Below the pieces are notes generated by a model. The model was not told the DNA's origin, made no database searches, and saw only the letters and a program-made list of their open reading frames with translations. Shown here piece by piece: positions 20,357 to 55,929 of a stretch of 64,000 nt of DNA. Each line of letters opens with the position of its first letter. Position 1 is the stretch's first letter. The DNA is from Faecalibacterium sp. I4-3-84 (lineage in GTDB: Bacteria; Bacillota; Clostridia; Oscillospirales; Ruminococcaceae): positions 2,046,001 through 2,110,000 of the forward strand of contig NZ_CP094466.1 in NCBI RefSeq assembly GCF_023347255.1, in the 5' to 3' direction. A program made the position numbers and the translations under genes.

Positions 20357-20842
20357 TTACTGCAGCGCTTCCCGCAGCTTGTTTAAAAGCCGCAGCAGCT
20401 CGGTATTTTCCTCCGCTGTCAGCAGCCCGGCCACATAGTCGTCGGTCTGGTGGAAGCAGAGCATCGTCTTTTCGTGGAAGCAGATGCCCTCTTCGGTGAG
20501 CACCAGCTGCTTGAGCCGGGCGTCCTGCGGAACACTGCGCCGCTCAATATAGCCCTTGCGCTCCATCAATTGCAGGATGTTGGTCACGGTGGAGCGGGTG
20601 ATGGAAAACTCCCGCTCAATGTCCCGCTGGAACACGGGGGTGTCCCGGTGGCGGTAGAGATACCCAATGATCCACCCGTGCATGGGGGTGGCCTGCTCCA
20701 CGTCATTTTCGCGGGCAAACTGGTTGATCTTGCGGAAGATCAGGTTGTCCACCCGGCGGATCTGCGCCGGGATGACCTGTGGGCCTTCCCAAGGGGGATC
20801 GGCGTGATTGCAGCACTCGTTTTTGGTTTCGTCACACATCAT
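20357..20842 (-). CDS. MarR-family transcriptional regulator
   Basis: About 161 residues with a winged helix-turn-helix (FSITRSTVTNILQLMERKGYIERR) and the wing DARLKQLVLTEEG. It should repress the downstream ABC exporter until a ligand binds. The frame is open to 20908, but a strong promoter ends at 20909, so that start is impossible in a normal leader. The ATG pair at 20842/20839, 7 bases after AAGGA, is the best start. The N-terminus then begins MMCDETKNECCNH, a Cys/His-rich segment that could sense redox or metal. Confidence 0.88.
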   Translation of the reverse strand: MMCDETKNECCNHADPPWEGPQVIPAQIRRVDNLIFRKINQFARENDVEQATPMHGWIIGYLYRHRDTPVFQRDIEREFSITRSTVTNILQLMERKGYIERRSVPQDARLKQLVLTEEGICFHEKTMLCFHQTDDYVAGLLTAEENTELLRLLNKLREALQ

Positions 20843-20908
20843 GGTTTTGTCCTTCATGGTTGTTTTGGCATTGAACAGTTTCAAATAAAACTGTTTGATA
20901 GCATACAT

Positions 20909-20936: not shown

Positions 20937-20956
20937 GGGGAAGGGAACGATTTTAA

Positions 20957-20981
20957 ATGCCCTCCGCTTTGCTCTGGGCAT
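20957..20981 (+). repeat. Structured 3' module, hairpin copy A
   Basis: ATGCCC and GGGCAT pair around the 13-base loop TCCGCTTTGCTCT. Twenty-eight bases later comes the terminator hairpin at 21010. No gene precedes it on this strand. Copies B (21226) and C (24329) share loop and spacing. Confidence 0.7.
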
Positions 20982-21009
20982 AAAATAATGAAATATTATT
21001 TTTTATATT

Positions 21010-21050
21010 GCAAACCAGCCAAGCCTGCGGGCTTGGCTGGTTTGCTTTTT
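21010..21050 (+). terminator. Intrinsic terminator without an upstream gene
   Basis: GCAAACCAGCCAAGCC and GGCTTGGCTGGTTTGC form a perfect 16-bp stem with a TGCG loop, followed by TTTTT. The plus strand upstream carries only hairpin copy A, so the gene it once served may be lost. The rest of 20909-21260 holds no coding frame I can support. Confidence 0.8.
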
Positions 21051-21160
21051 CACGGAAGGGGCCGTAGTTGCAAGCGGCATATTTTCCGGTTACGCGGTCA
21101 TTTCCGAAGGAAATAAGCGCAACAGATGGAGTTTACCTTTTGGGCCATTACTGTGAAAAT

Positions 21161-21196
21161 GCAACAGCAGACAGCCCGCAGGCTGTCTGCTGTTGC
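21161..21196 (-). terminator. Terminator hairpin after the DedA-family gene
   Basis: A perfect 16-bp stem (GCAACAGCAGACAGCC with its complement) and CGCA loop. The minus-strand tail is ATTTTCAC, so termination may be moderate. It follows hairpin copy B by 29 bases. Confidence 0.75.
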
Positions 21197-21225
21197 CCTA
21201 TTATAAAAATATTTTTCCGCTAAAT

Positions 21226-21251
21226 ATGCCCAGAGCGAATGTGGAGGGCAT
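21226..21251 (-). repeat. Structured 3' module, hairpin copy B
   Basis: On the minus strand ATGCCC and GGGCAT close the loop TCCACATTCGCTCT, then ATTTAGCGGAAAAAT. It starts 10 bases after the DedA-family stop and precedes the terminator at 21196. Confidence 0.7.
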
Positions 21252-21260
21252 TCTGAATTA

Positions 21261-21851
21261 TTATTCCAGATTGTGTTTTTTACAGAACTGTTTGCTCACC
21301 CAGTACATCCCGCCCCACAGCAGAACGGCCAGCACCAGATACACCGGGTTCTTCATGGAACTGACCAGCGACTGCCCAAACACTGCCATCATGGCGATCA
21401 TCACGCCCTTGCCCAGCAGCATGGTAATGAGATAGCGCTTTTCGTCAAAGTCCGAGATGCCAAAGGCCAGATGCATAAAGGAGCTTGGCGCGAAGGGCAG
21501 CAGCATGAGCATGAACAGCGACGAAGTGTCAAAGCGGTTCACCCACTGCTGAGCCTTTTCCAGCTTGGGCGAGCGGGAGGCAAACTTCCAGAAAAAGCGC
21601 TTGACCACCCGCCGCCAGAACAGGAACATGATGCTGCCACCCAGTGCCACACCGGCCCAGCTGTACAGAAAACCCAGAATGCTGCCGTGAGCCGCTACAT
21701 TCAGCGCCACAATGGCAATGAGCGGCAGCGGCGGAAAAAACGACTCCACCATGGCCAGCGTGATGGGGGCAATGGGGCCAAGGTTGCCAAAACTGTCCAG
21801 CAGAGTTTCCCAGAACTCCAGCGTTCCCAGCTGGCGCAGCCAAAAGTTCAT
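21261..21851 (-). CDS. DedA/TVP38-type (VTT domain) membrane protein
   Basis: A 196-residue inner-membrane protein. The N-terminal re-entrant region holds GPIAPITLAMVESFFPPLPLI, with the E-x3-P-P-L-P pattern of DedA/VTT proteins, and further TM segments lie at about residues 50-75, 115-140 and 160-185. Relatives act as lipid scramblases or flippases and affect membrane potential. The ATG at 21851 gives the usual N-terminus; in-frame ATGs at 21860 and 21887 exist, and the site GGAAGGG fits 21860 almost as well. Confidence 0.8.
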   Translation of the reverse strand: MNFWLRQLGTLEFWETLLDSFGNLGPIAPITLAMVESFFPPLPLIAIVALNVAAHGSILGFLYSWAGVALGGSIMFLFWRRVVKRFFWKFASRSPKLEKAQQWVNRFDTSSLFMLMLLPFAPSSFMHLAFGISDFDEKRYLITMLLGKGVMIAMMAVFGQSLVSSMKNPVYLVLAVLLWGGMYWVSKQFCKKHNLE

Positions 21852-22006
21852 TGTGCACATCCATCCCTTCCGCCTGCGCTTTCCCATCCGCAGGTTCCTC
21901 TATCCGTAGTATATCCATATTGTATGACACAAGCATGAACACAAAGCGACATTTTTTTGCCCTGTGCACAGTCTCCTTGGGATACTACGAAGCTGCCGGT
22001 GCTGTT

Positions 22007-22996
22007 TTACTCCGCAGCCTGCTTTTCTGCGCGGGCCTTCATACGCTCCAGCTGGGCGGTGCGCTGCTTTTCCCACCGGGCAAGAGAAGCATCGTCCGGG
22101 ATCTGCAGGCAGCGGGCGTAGCTCCAGTGCAGGCCGTCGCGGCGGGCCAGCTTGTAGCGCTGGAACACACCCTTGCCTGCGGCATTGCTGCTGCCGGCGC
22201 AGTGGGGGCACTGGCTCAGGGTGTACCAGCTGTTGCTGCCCTTTTTCAACCATACATCATCGGGCTTGAGCGGTGCGCCGCACTCCGGGCAGCTCATGGT
22301 GTAAATTTTGGGGTCGGTGCGCCAGGTGTACTGCTCCACATAGCCGCGGAAGACCTCAAAATCCCGGTAATCGCCGGGGGTGGGGCACAGGCTGGCCCGC
22401 AGGGATTCCTCCTCAGTGGGGTAGGCCGCAAGACCGGCCCGCAGGTCGAGCATCCGGCAGACATCGGCGGTGTACAGCGTGTCGGAAAGGGCATCGTGGA
22501 ACTGCCGCTCCATGGGCAGCCCTAAGCGGGTGACGACGCTTTCCAGCGTCATGCCCTCGCCCTCTTTGCGGGGATGCTCCCGCAGGAACACCTGCTGCAG
22601 GTCGTACCAGACGGTGGGCTTTGATTCGTCGATGTTGCACAGGTACAGGTTCTGCTTGAGCACCGGTACGTCATCCATGCCCCACTCGGCAAATTCGGCA
22701 TCCGGGCCGCACCACTGCATAAAGCGGCGCAGGCCCTGCACGATGGGCTCACCCTTGTCCAGATCGGCCTGCGTCAGGCCGGTGACTTTAGCAATGTGAT
22801 GCTGCAGCTTGCGGAAGATGCGGGGCCGCAGATGGATGGAAAAGGTGTCCAGCACGTTGGCATCCTCGTCAATCTTCACGGCACCGATCTCCACAATCTC
22901 GCCCCGGAAGGTCTGCTGCACGCCATGGTAATTAAAGGTATACGGCTGGTAGCCGATATTCCATTCCAGATCAAATAAAACCAGATTGCGTGGCAT
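22007..22996 (-). CDS. DEDDh 3'-5' exonuclease with C-terminal zinc ribbon
   Basis: A 329-residue RNase T/DnaQ-fold exonuclease. Exo I is LFDLEWN (D9, E11), exo II is in EWGMDDVPVL and exo III is FHDALSDT (His and Asp), so the DEDDh set is complete. Residues 1-190 form the nuclease; about 240-275 is a zinc ribbon (CPECG ... CPHC), and the tail is charged. KapD-like relatives act on RNA or DNA 3' ends; the substrate is unknown. GAGGA lies 9 bases upstream of the ATG. It begins 18 bases after the HAD gene stop, so both share a promoter. Confidence 0.88.
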   Translation of the reverse strand: MPRNLVLFDLEWNIGYQPYTFNYHGVQQTFRGEIVEIGAVKIDEDANVLDTFSIHLRPRIFRKLQHHIAKVTGLTQADLDKGEPIVQGLRRFMQWCGPDAEFAEWGMDDVPVLKQNLYLCNIDESKPTVWYDLQQVFLREHPRKEGEGMTLESVVTRLGLPMERQFHDALSDTLYTADVCRMLDLRAGLAAYPTEEESLRASLCPTPGDYRDFEVFRGYVEQYTWRTDPKIYTMSCPECGAPLKPDDVWLKKGSNSWYTLSQCPHCAGSSNAAGKGVFQRYKLARRDGLHWSYARCLQIPDDASLARWEKQRTAQLERMKARAEKQAAE

Positions 22997-23014
22997 TGTT
23001 TTGCGTTCCTCTCG

Positions 23015-23830
23015 TTACTTTAAAATAAACTTCTCCACAGCCTCGGCCACACCGTCGTGGTCGTTGTCGGCGGCAGTCACATAGTCGGCCACGGTCTTTA
23101 CCGGCTCTTCAGCGTTCTGCATGGCCACGCCCACACCGGCGTACTCGATCATGGAGCGGTCATTCAGGCCGTCGCCGCAGGCCATCAGGTTTTCGCGGCC
23201 AAGGCCCATGTGCTCCAAAAGGGCGGCAAGGCTGCCGTCCTTGGCAACGCCCAGCGGCACGGCTTCAATAAAGAACGGGCTGGAGGGGTACAGGTCGATG
23301 CGGCCGTCAAACTGCTTTTTGCCGGCGGCCCACACCTCGTCCCGGCGGGCGGGGTCCAGCGTGATGAGCATTTTGCAGATGGGGTAATCCACATACTTGG
23401 CCAGATCGTCCACGCCGGTCATGGGCAGTTTGCAGGTAAAGCACTCGCGCAGTGCCCACTTGTCGTCCGGGTGCTCGGTGACAACGCCCTCTTTATTATA
23501 GGTGATAATGGTCACGTTCTGTGCGGCGGCAAAGGCGCACAGCTCGGGTACGTACTGGGCATCCAGCTGTTTCTGGTACAAAGTCTCGCCGGTGCGGCAG
23601 TCGATGATCTTGCCGCCGTTGTAGGAAAGGATGCAGCCGCCCTTTTTATCCAGCCCCAGTTCCTTTGCCAGCGGCAGCACGCCCGCGGTGGGACGGCCGG
23701 ATGCCAGCACGATGGTGACACCCTTTGCAATTGCGGCATCCAGTGCGGCGCGGGTGCGGGGTGTAACTTCCTTCTGGCTGTTGGTCAGGGTGCCATCCAG
23801 ATCCAGTGCCAGAACTTTGATCTCTGCCAT
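23015..23830 (-). CDS. HAD-IIB (Cof-type) sugar phosphatase
   Basis: A 271-residue Cof-family hydrolase. Motif I is LDLDGTLTNS (nucleophile and acid Asp), motif II the SGRPTAG region, motif III the lysine before the cap end, and motif IV GDGLNDRSMIEYAG. Such enzymes dephosphorylate sugar phosphates, FMN or pyridoxal phosphate; the specificity is not readable. The start at 23830 has GAGAGGA 7 bases upstream; the frame is open further but unlike the family. Confidence 0.9.
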   Translation of the reverse strand: MAEIKVLALDLDGTLTNSQKEVTPRTRAALDAAIAKGVTIVLASGRPTAGVLPLAKELGLDKKGGCILSYNGGKIIDCRTGETLYQKQLDAQYVPELCAFAAAQNVTIITYNKEGVVTEHPDDKWALRECFTCKLPMTGVDDLAKYVDYPICKMLITLDPARRDEVWAAGKKQFDGRIDLYPSSPFFIEAVPLGVAKDGSLAALLEHMGLGRENLMACGDGLNDRSMIEYAGVGVAMQNAEEPVKTVADYVTAADNDHDGVAEAVEKFILK

Positions 23831-23878
23831 ATAAAATCCTCTCAATTTATATAAAGGTAAAAAAGCACTTACTCTCTT

Positions 23879-23908
23879 ATTGTACAATGAAATGCCATCA
23901 TCTTTCAA
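23879..23908 (-). promoter_or_regulatory. Promoter of the HAD-exonuclease operon
   Basis: On the minus strand TTGAAA (23903-23908) and TACAAT (23879-23884) are 18 bases apart, about 50 bases upstream of the HAD start. Confidence 0.65.
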
Positions 23909-23979
23909 CCCTTGCAGAGACGTTTGTGGAAAAAGTGGTGGCACTTGAGCAGGATTTTACATCCCTTTCCGGCTTTTTA

Positions 23980-24172
23980 CGTTGGCGCGGATGCCGCAGC
24001 CGACGAGGAGAACTGCCTGCTGGGCCTGTTCCAGAAACCCAAGTACATCTTCCTGTTCATCGGCGACGGCATGGGCACTGCCCAGATCCAGTCTGCCCGC
24101 TTCTACAAGGACACCGTGGACAACAACGGCGCTGTGACCGAGGCCGACTTCCACATTTTCCCGGATAAAGTA
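23980..24172 (+). pseudogene. Alkaline phosphatase remnant (N-terminal fragment)
   Basis: This reading frame encodes an alkaline-phosphatase N-terminus: LGLFQKPKYIFLFIGDGMG, in which the GDGMG Asp is a metal ligand, then AQIQSARFYKDT and VTEADFHIF. Homology stops after about 60 residues at FPDKV and the sequence runs directly into a terminator hairpin, so the rest of a protein of roughly 450-550 residues is missing. No recognisable signal peptide or start codon with a ribosome site precedes it. It looks like an internal deletion that left the 5' end and the terminator. A short expressed peptide cannot be ruled out. Confidence 0.75.
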
Positions 24173-24225
24173 AAACCTCCCCGCTCTGGAACCGCAGCGA
24201 CTGCGGCCGGGCAGGGAGGTTTTGC
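24173..24225 (+). terminator. Terminator after the alkaline phosphatase remnant
   Basis: AAACCTCCC and GGGAGGTTT form the base of a branched hairpin that also holds CCGCAG-CGA-CTGCGG, followed by TTTGCG. It is probably the original terminator of the deleted gene. Confidence 0.65.
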
Positions 24226-24261
24226 GTTGATTATGCTGTTTGCCTTTGCGGCTCCGCGGGT

Positions 24262-24302
24262 GAAAAAACAAATCGGGAAAGTCCGCAGACTTTCCCGATT
24301 TG
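24262..24302 (-). terminator. Intrinsic terminator of mscL
   Basis: CAAATCGGGAAAGTC and its complement make a perfect 15-bp stem with a CGCA loop (CGCA/TGCG depending on strand); the minus-strand tail is TTTTTTC. It follows hairpin copy C by 26 bases. Confidence 0.85.
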
Positions 24303-24328
24303 TAATTTAGAAAATGATTCCGCTGAAT

Positions 24329-24353
24329 ATGGCCAGAGCAAAGCGGAGGCCAT
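24329..24353 (-). repeat. Structured 3' module, hairpin copy C
   Basis: On the minus strand ATGGCC and GGCCAT close the loop TCCGCTTTGCTCT, followed by ATTCAGCGGAATCAT. Relative to copies A and B, the fourth stem pair has changed on both sides (C-G to G-C). It begins 8 bases after the mscL stop. Confidence 0.7.
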
Positions 24354-24360
24354 TCAAAAT

Positions 24361-24813
24361 TTAATTGTTGATCTCCGGGAAGCCCTCCAGCTTGCTGGTG
24401 CAGTGGGGGCAGCGCACTGCCTTGATAGAGATCTCACTCTGGCAGTAGGGGCACACCTTGGTGGTGGGCTCTGCGGGAGCTTCCGGCTCAGCAGGTTTCT
24501 TGTGCAGGGCGTTGATGGTCTTGATGACCACAAACAGCACAAAGGCCACGATCAGGAAGTTGATGATGGCGGTGATAAATGCACCAATGCCGATCATCAC
24601 ATCACCCACATGGATGCCCACTTCCGAGAAATCTGCGTTGAAGAACAGGCCGATGAGGGGGTTGATGATATCACCCACCAGCGAGTTGACGATGGCCGTG
24701 AACGCACCGCCGATCACAACACCGACTGCCATATCCAGCACGTTGCCGCGCATGGCGAAGGCCTTGAATTCTTCAAAAAACTTTTTGATGCCTTTCACTT
24801 CTTTTTCTGCCAT
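24361..24813 (-). CDS. mscL: Large-conductance mechanosensitive channel with C-terminal zinc ribbon
   Basis: A 150-residue MscL. The N-terminal amphipathic helix and TM1 (FAMRGNVLDMAVGVVIGGAF) and TM2 (about residues 70-100, FITAIINFLIVAFVLFVVI) are canonical. It opens under membrane tension to release solutes during osmotic downshock. After the bundle region, residues about 118-143 form a CPYCQSEISIKAVRCPHC zinc ribbon, an addition seen in some Firmicutes MscL proteins and absent from E. coli. The ATG at 24813 has AAGGAGTG 10 bases upstream. Confidence 0.95.
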   Translation of the reverse strand: MAEKEVKGIKKFFEEFKAFAMRGNVLDMAVGVVIGGAFTAIVNSLVGDIINPLIGLFFNADFSEVGIHVGDVMIGIGAFITAIINFLIVAFVLFVVIKTINALHKKPAEPEAPAEPTTKVCPYCQSEISIKAVRCPHCTSKLEGFPEINN

Positions 24814-24867
24814 AAGAAAATCCACTCCTTTACTCCCTTTATGCCGCAAGGAAACGTATTTGCTTCT

Positions 24868-24896
24868 ATGATAGCGAATTTTTGGCGTGATTGCAA
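24868..24896 (-). promoter_or_regulatory. mscL promoter
   Basis: On the minus strand TTGCAA (24891-24896) and TATCAT (24868-24873) are 17 bases apart, 55 bases upstream of the start. Confidence 0.6.
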
Positions 24897-24929
24897 GGGA
24901 AAATGACAGCCTCAGCCCTCTTTTGGAAA

Positions 24930-24967
24930 AAAATAAAACGGGAAAGTCCTGCAGACTTTCCCGTTTT
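24930..24967 (-). terminator. Intrinsic terminator of the lipoprotein gene
   Basis: AAAACGGGAAAGTC and its complement make a 14-bp stem with a TGCAG loop; the minus-strand tail is ATTTTTTTCC. The upper stem (CGGGAAAGTC) is the same as in the mscL terminator at 24269. Confidence 0.88.
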
Positions 24968-24985
24968 GCAAGGATGAAACAGTTT

Positions 24986-25477
24986 TTACTTTTCCGGTGC
25001 AGTAAAAGCGATGGGGGTAGCACCTGCAGCGGCATCCACACTCAGCAGGGAGATGGGAGCGACCTCGTAGTGCAGGGTCTCAAAGCTCTGGGTCTGGCCG
25101 TCCTCGGTGGTGAACTCCAGAATGTAGGTCACGTCGGACTGCTTGTCAGCCTCCACGTCGCGGGTGATGACGATGTTCTCGCCGTCAGCCAGACCGTTCT
25201 CACCGGCCAGATTGTCGCCCTTCTCGTCGCTGCCTGCATCGTACAGGTACAGCTCGGTGACGGTAGAACCGGTGGTGTTGTACACAGTGTACTCAGCGGT
25301 GGTGGGCTCAGCAGCTTCGCTGGAAGCAGCCTCAGAGCTTGCAGCCTCGGAAGAAGCGGCAGCAGAAGAAGCCACAGAAGAGGAAGCGGCGGTGGAGGAT
25401 GCAGAAGAACCGCAGGCGGTCATGCCAACAGCCAGTGCTGCAGCGGCAGCAACGATCGCAATGTTCTTGAGTTTCAT
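24986..25477 (-). CDS. Small lipoprotein with Ser/Ala-rich linker
   Basis: A 163-residue exported protein. Signal peptide residues 1-21 end in GMTAC, a plausible lipobox with Cys22 as lipid anchor. Residues 24-57 are a low-complexity spacer with repeats of SSEAA. Residues about 60-160 form a small beta-rich domain (YTVYNTTGSTVTELYLYDAGS ... YILEFTTEDGQ). Function unknown; a surface or substrate-binding accessory role is possible. AAAGGAG lies about 8 bases upstream, and it is monocistronic with its own promoter and terminator. Confidence 0.85.
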   Translation of the reverse strand: MKLKNIAIVAAAAALAVGMTACGSSASSTAASSSVASSAAASSEAASSEAASSEAAEPTTAEYTVYNTTGSTVTELYLYDAGSDEKGDNLAGENGLADGENIVITRDVEADKQSDVTYILEFTTEDGQTQSFETLHYEVAPISLLSVDAAAGATPIAFTAPEK

Positions 25478-55577: not shown

Positions 55578-55752
55578 GCTTTTTCTTGAATGTTAATACG
55601 TGTAAACTTTTTACGATGCGTAGTTAGAAAAAGCTATCTCTAACGCGTTTTTCAAGACAAACTACAGTTTGTAAATAAAAACTAACCGGCAGATGGGACG
55701 AGAAAGAATTTCCAGTTTGTAAAAATGCAGTTTACCACATAAGTCAGACGGC

Positions 55753-55836
55753 CTCGCCCTCTCAGTCTCGCATTGGCTGCCAAAGGCTCTCCCCGTGGGA
55801 GAGGTGGATTTGCGAAGCAAAGACGGAGAGGGCGAG
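55753..55836. repeat. Palindromic MITE-like repeat, copy 3
   Basis: 84 bases with perfect 11-base terminal inverted repeats, CTCGCCCTCTC and GAGAGGGCGAG. The right end holds the mini-hairpin TTTGCGAAGCAAA between GGTGGA and GACGGAGAGGG. It shares termini with the 44606 copy but is shorter inside. Confidence 0.8.
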
Positions 55837-55845
55837 CACATTAAA

Positions 55846-55920
55846 ATAAAAGCATCCGCAATAAAACTTTCCAAACTTTTTGAAGCTCAGAAATGCTTTT
55901 TGCAGATGCTTTTCATTTTT
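55846..55920 (-). terminator. Terminator of serCA
   Basis: AAAAGCATC and GATGCTTTT pair (extended by GCAA/TTGC with a bulge) over a long A/T-rich loop; the minus-strand tail is TATTTTAA. Confidence 0.55.
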
Positions 55921-55929
55921 TGACAGTTT

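Follow-up and report, generated by a model that had tools for sequence, protein, structure and literature searches.

The SPRITE of pneumococcus, in the part of its description available to us, comprises 30 copies with one 18-bp duplex, a long U-rich tract and AAAA/TTTT ends. Repetitive extragenic palindromes (REPs) carry a GTAG or CGTC tag at one end according to the available sections of PMC3733652, bacterial interspersed mosaic elements (BIMEs) are reported as bidirectional terminators in those of PMC3116915, PMC12306157 and PMC2965389, and Escherichia coli REPs lying <16 nt from a stop codon are reported in the available part of PMC12306157, citing earlier work, to lower translation. Here we describe a dispersed repeat of Faecalibacterium, encountered in a stretch of 64,000 nucleotides (hereafter the window) that corresponds to C1:2046001-2110000 of the 3.12-Mb genome of Faecalibacterium sp. 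I4-3-84. Its building block is a half-element of ~120-140 nt that joins a mismatched hairpin to a putative intrinsic terminator; the complete form is a palindrome, mostly 256-321 bp long, with the halves facing inward, single halves being probable remnants. We consider it likely that these copies form a small, non-autonomous, mobile-looking repeat family of the REPIN/SPRITE/MITE kind (MITE, miniature inverted-repeat transposable element), which spreads, persists mainly at gene 3′ ends and supplies terminators there. We found no description of the repeat in the literature searched, which did not extend to subscription journals or to supplements such as that of PMC8040213 on microbiome RNAs.

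A sequence-only reading of the window had described three like copies of a covarying hairpin followed by a terminator. All three hairpins are present, at 20957-20981 on the plus strand (A) and at 21226-21251 (B) and 24329-24353 (C) on the minus strand, and so is the flip of one stem pair from C-G to G-C, the outer stems reading ATGCCC/GGGCAT in A and B and ATGGCC/GGCCAT in C. The motif as written has no match in the window with ≤3 mismatches because its fixed spacing is wrong; a gapped core, CCTCCN{3,10}GCTCTGG, was used instead and gave 31 matches in the I4-3-84 genome versus 5 for the reversed control. Together with the covariance-model scores of A, B and C, this excludes a chance origin of the motif. 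Alignment of the copies revealed that the motif is only hairpin 1 of a ~120-nt unit, which runs from the edge ACGATTT(A/T)(A/G)A through hairpin 1, CAGCGGAA, an A/T-rich linker, the terminator hairpin and TTTTCAC to the tail, an AGCGGAA stretch standing between hairpin 1 and the linker. In hairpin 1 an outer stem of six pairs leads through a 3x3 internal loop (UCC/UCU) to two inner pairs and an apical loop that varies, so that what had been called a conserved loop holds for the internal loop and the GC/GC pairs and fails for the apical loop. The terminator hairpin usually has 16 pairs and a UGCG loop closed by C-G, and the tail is close to nGGAAGGGYCGTAA and extends to about GGCAT. The 5′ edge is sharp, with ≤0.17 bits per position across the 30 positions before ACGATTT in 69 copies; these strong copies, at ≥55 bits, are used for all context counts and belong to 76 at ≥34 bits, the listing of 80 matches having included 4 short terminator echoes.

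Half A (20947-21067, plus strand; covariance model R1, 121.9 bits, E 1.1e-27) is antisense to its nearest upstream gene. Its hairpin 1, ATGCCC-TCC-GC-TTT-GC-TCT-GGGCAT, folds as drawn (-9.3 kcal/mol), and its 16-pair terminator hairpin with UGCG loop (21010-21045, then TTTTTCAC) is evident from the sequence, a terminator scan and the fold. Half B (21139-21261, minus strand; 114.1 bits, E 8.5e-26) has as base 1 the final base of the stop codon of a VTT/DedA gene; its hairpin 1 is evident from the sequence, although the single-sequence fold of the whole half favours other pairings, and its 16-pair, UGCG-looped terminator hairpin (21161-21196, then ATTTTCAC), seen in sequence and fold, was missed by the terminator scan, the T-tract being short. 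Half C (24246-24363, minus strand; 116.4 bits, E 2.4e-26) is single and overlaps the mscL stop codon; sequence and fold agree on its hairpin 1, and scan and fold on its terminator hairpin, again of 16 pairs with a UGCG loop (24268-24303, then TTTTTTCAC). These scores of 114-122 bits are those of training members, the model having been built from copies including A, B and C. The terminators, said to follow the hairpins after 26-29 nt, lie 28 (A), 29 (B) and 25 nt (C) downstream, close to that range. In each copy a 16-pair stem passes at once into a T-tract, of 5 T in A and 6 T in C but only 4 in B, as expected of intrinsic terminators. As the sequence-only reading had it, hairpins B and C begin shortly past the stops of genes with VTT/DedA and mscL domains (9 and 7 nt; Pfam). 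Its treatment of the three copies as alike needs amending for A, which is not behind a same-strand gene and faces B: the two, as convergent model matches, are the inward-facing halves of one full palindromic element of 315 bp (20947-21261), located between a marR-like gene and the VTT/DedA gene. The same place is occupied in F. prausnitzii CNCM I 4541 (L087) and in a second genome of the I4-3-84 species (G150).

About half of the copies are paired in this way. Convergent pairs within 500 bp hold 34 of the 69 strong copies, and among strong I4-3-84 copies there are 17 pairs, 13 spanning 256-321 bp and four 368-518 bp. Paired copies form long inverted ends, and many, by eye, have an extra hairpin in mid-palindrome; in single halves the match between the two ends is, also by eye, limited to a short AAATGCC/GGCATTT. 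The one wider convergent pair inspected in the I4-3-84 genome (L130, 1.2 kb), considered as a possible autonomous element, was rejected: it contains a 217-aa open reading frame (ORF) with a putative Nudix-like motif and no evident transposase.

The paired structure was tested in several alignments. Among 25 copies aligned with MAFFT, 94.5% of cells are paired, versus 70.0% with shuffled partners and 35-45% with slid ones, and 17 of 24 pairs show change on both sides; these copies come from the 31 pattern matches, whose pattern fixes part of hairpin 1, after removal of L001 (a coding chance match), L008, L012, L014 and L017 (no usable tail) and one match without a locus. When the 80 matches are aligned to the model, in an alignment that is structure-fitted and takes in the 4 terminator echoes, 97.0% of cells are paired and 23 of 24 pairs change on both sides; in helix 3, 429 cells carry a two-sided change and 16 a one-sided one, and 40 are unpaired. 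An alignment-free test found an outer stem of ≥5 pairs in 26 of 39 copies that were not picked by the pattern, where 4.3 are expected from mononucleotide shuffles, and in 25/25 pattern-picked copies, where 2.3 are expected. The terminator stem has a different sequence in nearly every copy, and its arms differ between copies in 46 of the 47 whose best hairpin has ≥14 uninterrupted pairs. When A, B and C are folded singly, the resulting structures are much more stable than those of shuffles (z -5.3 to -6.2), the fold of B lacking hairpin 1 in its drawn form. The covariation is decisive, and both it and the near-fixed spacing are borne out on up to 80 matches. Covariation alone is no proof of a role in RNA, because selection and arm-copying DNA repair can each deplete one-sided changes. 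The terminator loop, CTGCGG in 51 of 69 copies and, as C(UGCG)G, a UNCG-type RNA tetraloop, does point to RNA. Pseudoknot pairing of the hairpin-1 loop (UCCGCU) with the AGCGGA further downstream was considered and is not supported, because copies altered on one side (GACGC or GCC in the loop, AGAGGAA or AAAGGAA downstream) keep the other side unchanged, by eye.

The covariance-model search of related genomes that the sequence-only reading had proposed found copies in further Faecalibacterium genomes. The I4-3-84 genome has 83 matches at E≤0.1 and 74 at E≤1e-4, dispersed over the chromosome, and G150 has 98 at E≤0.01 and 91 at E≤1e-4. At E≤1e-4, other genomes of the genus are either copy-rich (G003, 134; G006, at least 150; G022, 145; G026, 123; G028, 108; G029, 133) or nearly empty (G007, 3; G020, 2; G025, 1). 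In a survey of 150 genomes, matches were confined to 10, all of one genus and including the I4-3-84 genome; 20 other listed genomes of the same genus and the remaining 120, which we take to be other genera from a tally of 106 genera, gave no match among the best 23 candidates scored per genome under strict filters, so that a few weak copies could have been missed. By the exonuclease gene between the copies, the closest relative is F. prausnitzii CNCM I 4541 (94% protein identity), the best relatives all being Faecalibacterium. Rfam 15 has no family for the repeat: the window gave 0 matches at gathering thresholds and, at E≤5, two in the region, both outside the element, and 20 loci gave only an unrelated T-box. 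The latter, a T-box leader RNA beside one I4-3-84 copy, lies at L128 522-784 (RF00230, 104.9 bits). A phage origin was also considered and rejected, as only one of 57 IMG/VR stretches with the core pattern has model matches; in that one (L301, 11004-11312; IMGVR_UViG_3300018472_000384) a paired copy lies near the contig end, possibly in the host flank of a provirus.

The position of the copies relative to genes, called with an in-house codon-usage ORF caller, is strongly biased. The upstream ORF lies on the same strand for 51 of the 69 strong copies and on the opposite strand for 18, and in 40 of the 51 the distance from stop codon to element edge is between -9 and +13 nt; copy C is scored as a miss in this count because the caller predicted an ORF antisense to mscL. 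If copies were placed uniformly within the available gap, 5.6 would be expected on average in this range, and 10,000 trials gave no more than 13. The 40 stops are 22 TGA and 18 TAA, many of them overlapping the element edge, and the foot of hairpin 1 is ≤15 nt from the stop in 30 of the 51 and ≤25 nt in 40. Three causes would explain the gene-end bias, namely preferential insertion, disappearance of copies at other places, and use as terminators; the data favour more than mere tolerance, without separating these three.

Site comparisons between genomes revealed turnover. Most sites are common to I4-3-84 and G150, given that 54 of 70 G150 loci matched I4-3-84 copy-bearing loci or the window; counterparts were fetched for some of the remaining G150 sites and some I4-3-84 sites, and 13 site pairs were inspected. 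In nine of them the element is in one genome only, between flanks 96.5-99.5% identical: in G150 at seven sites (L184, L185, L176, L196, L212, L218, L243) and in I4-3-84 at two (L005, L004). At one of these, 283 bases in G150 stand against 1 base (L212/L248). At L009/L258 the copies are different and in opposite orientation, at L260/L013 one copy is interrupted by another repeat, at L191/L132 the difference lies downstream of a copy apparently in both, and L236/L253, which seemed empty, was left out of the polymorphic count because I4-3-84 apparently keeps a remnant. In comparisons with other genomes of the genus, L065 (G029) and L156 (I4-3-84) have flanks 95.5% and 96.0% identical around 664 bases with a pair in the former and 70 bases in the latter; L027 (I4-3-84) and L067 (G007), with flanks 93.9% and 84.6% identical, nonetheless have different copies at the same gene ends; and L010 and L074 (G029) share a nearly identical pair. 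L212/L248 and L065 versus L156 resemble insertion, whereas other sites resemble replacement.

The mscL region exemplifies this turnover. Half C is present in I4-3-84, the element is absent from the mscL 3′ end of L088-L090, and CNCM I 4541 keeps the terminator and tail there while ~46 nt including hairpin 1 are missing. Behind the gene preceding mscL, a terminator part without hairpin 1, with stems that differ among species, is found at L087 2457-2567, L088 2498-2610, L089 2493-2597 and L090 2038-2150. In L088-L090 it comprises a purine-rich stretch (CAGCGGAAAA in L088 and L090; GGAAAA or CAGCGGAAAA-like across the three), linker, hairpin (loop TGCG in L088 and L089, TACG in L090) and T-tract, scoring 53-60 bits; decay has gone further in L087 and the window, where the stem is paired differently and the score is 32-35 bits. 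The window copy, a probable decayed relative, has a terminator hairpin with TGCA loop at 24935-24967 on the minus strand within a weak model match at 24911-25033 (34.8 bits). At such sites, common to several species, the terminator is therefore what lasts; old copies would keep the terminator and lose hairpin 1, as these two sites suggest.

These comparisons bear on whether the unit is a conserved 3′-untranslated region (3′-UTR) regulatory RNA or 3′-derived small RNA with one role in many mRNAs. Such an RNA would account for the strong covariation, the conserved internal loop and the location directly past stop codons, but close relatives have no copy or another copy at the inspected sites, the copies form inverted pairs, Rfam holds no match and the terminator stem varies as described above; already weakened by the polymorphism, this explanation is now very improbable in our view. 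Because half of the copies are in inverted pairs and 9 of 13 sites are polymorphic, we regard the unit as a dispersed, mobile-looking repeat and not as an ancestral 3′-UTR regulator. Of the identities that the sequence-only reading had offered, the dispersed repeat carrying terminators fits 74 copies, inverted pairs, restriction to one genus and patchiness within it, and sites polymorphic within a species; the 3′-UTR element is right as to the position of most copies (40/51 with a same-strand upstream gene) and wrong as to a conserved regulator, since inspected sites are empty or otherwise filled in close relatives and 18/69 copies have an opposite-strand upstream gene; the small RNA has no support.

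In two site pairs (L250/L185, L246/L196), the gene-end place that the element takes in G150 is, by eye, filled in I4-3-84 by an ordinary hairpin plus T-tract. At two G150 sites (L188, L257) another repeat family (ACTCCCCCAGTCTGC...GGAGTTT) starts at the gene-end position that the element takes in I4-3-84 (L005, L004), and at window positions 55725-55929 I4-3-84 has a CTCGCCCTCTCAGTC...GAGAGGGCGAG repeat where G150 has an element copy (L218). Gene ends are thus exchanged as modules. A bolder proposal, possible though doubtful at present, is that gene 3′ ends are a slot for exchangeable terminator cassettes of several unrelated repeat families, which take each other's place at stop codons between strains of one species, and that palindrome-templated repair rewrites both stem arms. 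If so, terminators and mRNA 3′ ends would be horizontally swapped parts, this repeat being chief among the families, and the 16-bp stems would stay paired despite differing sequence not through RNA selection alone. Separately, a second repeat family (GGAGCTTGTCGGGG...CCATCTGC...GAAAGCCCCACTGGGGCTTTC) lies inside the terminator-hairpin loop of several copies, as if targeting the loop (L155 1996-2103, plus; L152 1867-1995, plus; L154 2058-2145, minus; also L212 and L243 of G150).

The position behind stops, a structure kept while sequence varies and the exchange of gene ends from one genome to another, with junctions at the stop codon or close to it, also recall recombination sites akin to integron attC. 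This explanation is largely refuted, and we give it almost no credence: the integron integrase model TIGR02249 exceeds its cut-off in none of 31 Faecalibacterium genomes, and the repeat has a sharp edge, inverted pairs and copies scattered over the chromosome. Below that cut-off the integrase search carries no information, and at loose E-values it gives matches in each of 14 control genomes; the best trace is a broken partial match in G150 (C1:2474714-2475522), with integron-integrase-like pieces at 87 and 80 bits against a cut-off of 265 and an internal TAG.

True REPINs, mobilised by a REP-associated tyrosine transposase (RAYT; Y1 transposase) of the same genome, would likewise be extragenic, imperfectly palindromic, arranged in inverted doublets and near stops, and Y1 genes or fragments do lie beside copies in L161, L171 and L174. 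Y1_Tnp (PF01797) is found in 11 of the 31 genus genomes; it is absent from copy-rich G006 and G150 and present in some genomes without copies, model matches occur at only 4 of 17 Y1 loci and are weak at one of these, the other 13 adjoin no copy, and the repeat edge bears no GTAG/CGTC tag. We judge a RAYT-driven family to be highly improbable. In another observation, a 44-kb segment of the I4-3-84 genome (C1:2318798-2363277; L143, L052) lies between two halves that adjoin each other in G150 (946107+/946267-), and fragments of a Y1 transposase gene are found near both its ends.

Several observations weigh against a spreading, terminator-supplying repeat family. No transposase or autonomous copy was found, Y1_Tnp being the sole transposase family searched for, and no target-site duplication was evident by eye between filled and empty sites. 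Several site differences resemble a swap of the entire intergenic region, so that homologous exchange with other strains could suffice without transposition. The T-tracts are short (TTTTCAC). Between tandem genes, the preponderance of sense (18) over antisense (7) single halves is weak (p=0.043), and antisense singles score as well as sense ones under the model (median 109.6 bits, n=7, versus 98.5, n=28; p=0.13), so that better preservation of sense copies is not apparent. This last point would suit a purely parasitic repeat, one that moves or is exchanged, is tolerated at gene 3′ ends and lost elsewhere, and whose hairpins serve mobility with termination incidental, as would the inverted pairs, the patchiness, the site polymorphism, the likeness of the mismatched hairpin to REPs and the 18 of 69 copies that are not behind a same-strand gene. 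However, the tight pinning to stops is not reproduced by uniform placement in the gap, a UGCG loop followed by a T-tract is what an RNA terminator requires, ordinary terminators are replaced at some sites, and the terminator is retained where hairpin 1 is lost. We regard pure parasitism as unlikely and retain the repeat family that supplies terminators.

Under the retained explanation, the repeat would spread by some transposase or by recombination. A half would end transcription of the preceding gene at its T-tract, and a full palindrome may do so from both sides for convergent neighbours. Hairpin 1, mostly ≤25 nt past the stop, probably shields the mRNA at its 3′ end or impedes the terminating ribosome like the E. 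coli REPs. In the window, the genes concerned are the minus-strand VTT (DedA-type) gene at 21261-21887 (PF09335, E 7.6e-17), whose stop abuts half B, and the minus-strand mscL ORF at 24361-25041, whose stop abuts half C; its Pfam match (PF01741, E 6.8e-38) starts at residue 88, and the true mscL start is probably internal to the ORF. On the other side of the palindrome lies a minus-strand MarR-family gene (20357-20908; PF12802, E 4.9e-14), and a promoter scan places a promoter-like TTGACA-16-TATAAT between it and half A (20936-20909).

Few bacteria of the human gut are commoner than Faecalibacterium, and little is known of its post-transcriptional biology. A repeat that brings terminators to dozens of gene ends per genome, and does so differently from strain to strain, would alter where transcripts end and how much read-through occurs while leaving most coding sequence untouched, and such repeats would mislead searches for conserved 3′-UTR RNAs. 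They would also offer a natural experiment, in which one gene of one species has differing terminators.

Compared with the described systems, the Faecalibacterium repeat shares with the SPRITE, as far as the available part of its description goes, small size, an interspersed distribution, a terminator-like hairpin, proximity to gene 3′ ends, enrichment between convergent genes, restriction to close relatives and the lack of a known transposase or clear target duplication. Unlike the SPRITE, it has 74 to at least 150 copies per copy-rich genome, a second, mismatched hairpin, inverted pairs, a position pinned to the stop codon and a 16-bp stem with a UGCG loop whose sequence varies freely in the stem; in place of a single 18-bp duplex, U-rich tract and AAAA/TTTT ends, we find two hairpins, an ACGATTT end and TTTTCAC. 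With prokaryotic MITEs, in the available sections of PMC10969869, it shares short inverted repeats, intergenic location and nested insertions, but no parent transposase (PF01797 being the family searched) or target-site duplication was found. Like the IS-derived mobile attenuators described in the accessible part of PMC2965389, it would represent terminators spread by mobile DNA and then re-used; those attenuators sit upstream of genes, whereas this repeat lies mainly behind them. With REPs, REPINs and BIMEs, as the available portions of PMC3116915, PMC12306157 and PMC2965389 describe them, it shares imperfect extragenic palindromes and inverted doublets with singlet remnants, 34 of 69 copies being paired and hairpin 1 containing a 3x3 internal loop. 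It differs from what those portions describe in having its own separate, full intrinsic terminator and a unit of ~120-140 nt, in two copy-rich genomes where no Y1 transposase was detected (no PF01797 in G006 or G150), and in an edge consensus of ACGATTT(A/T)(A/G)A on 69 copies in place of a GTAG/CGTC tag. Strict membership fails for both the SPRITE and the REPIN/BIME group; the SPRITE of pneumococcus is nearest in kind, and REPIN/BIME is nearest in architecture.

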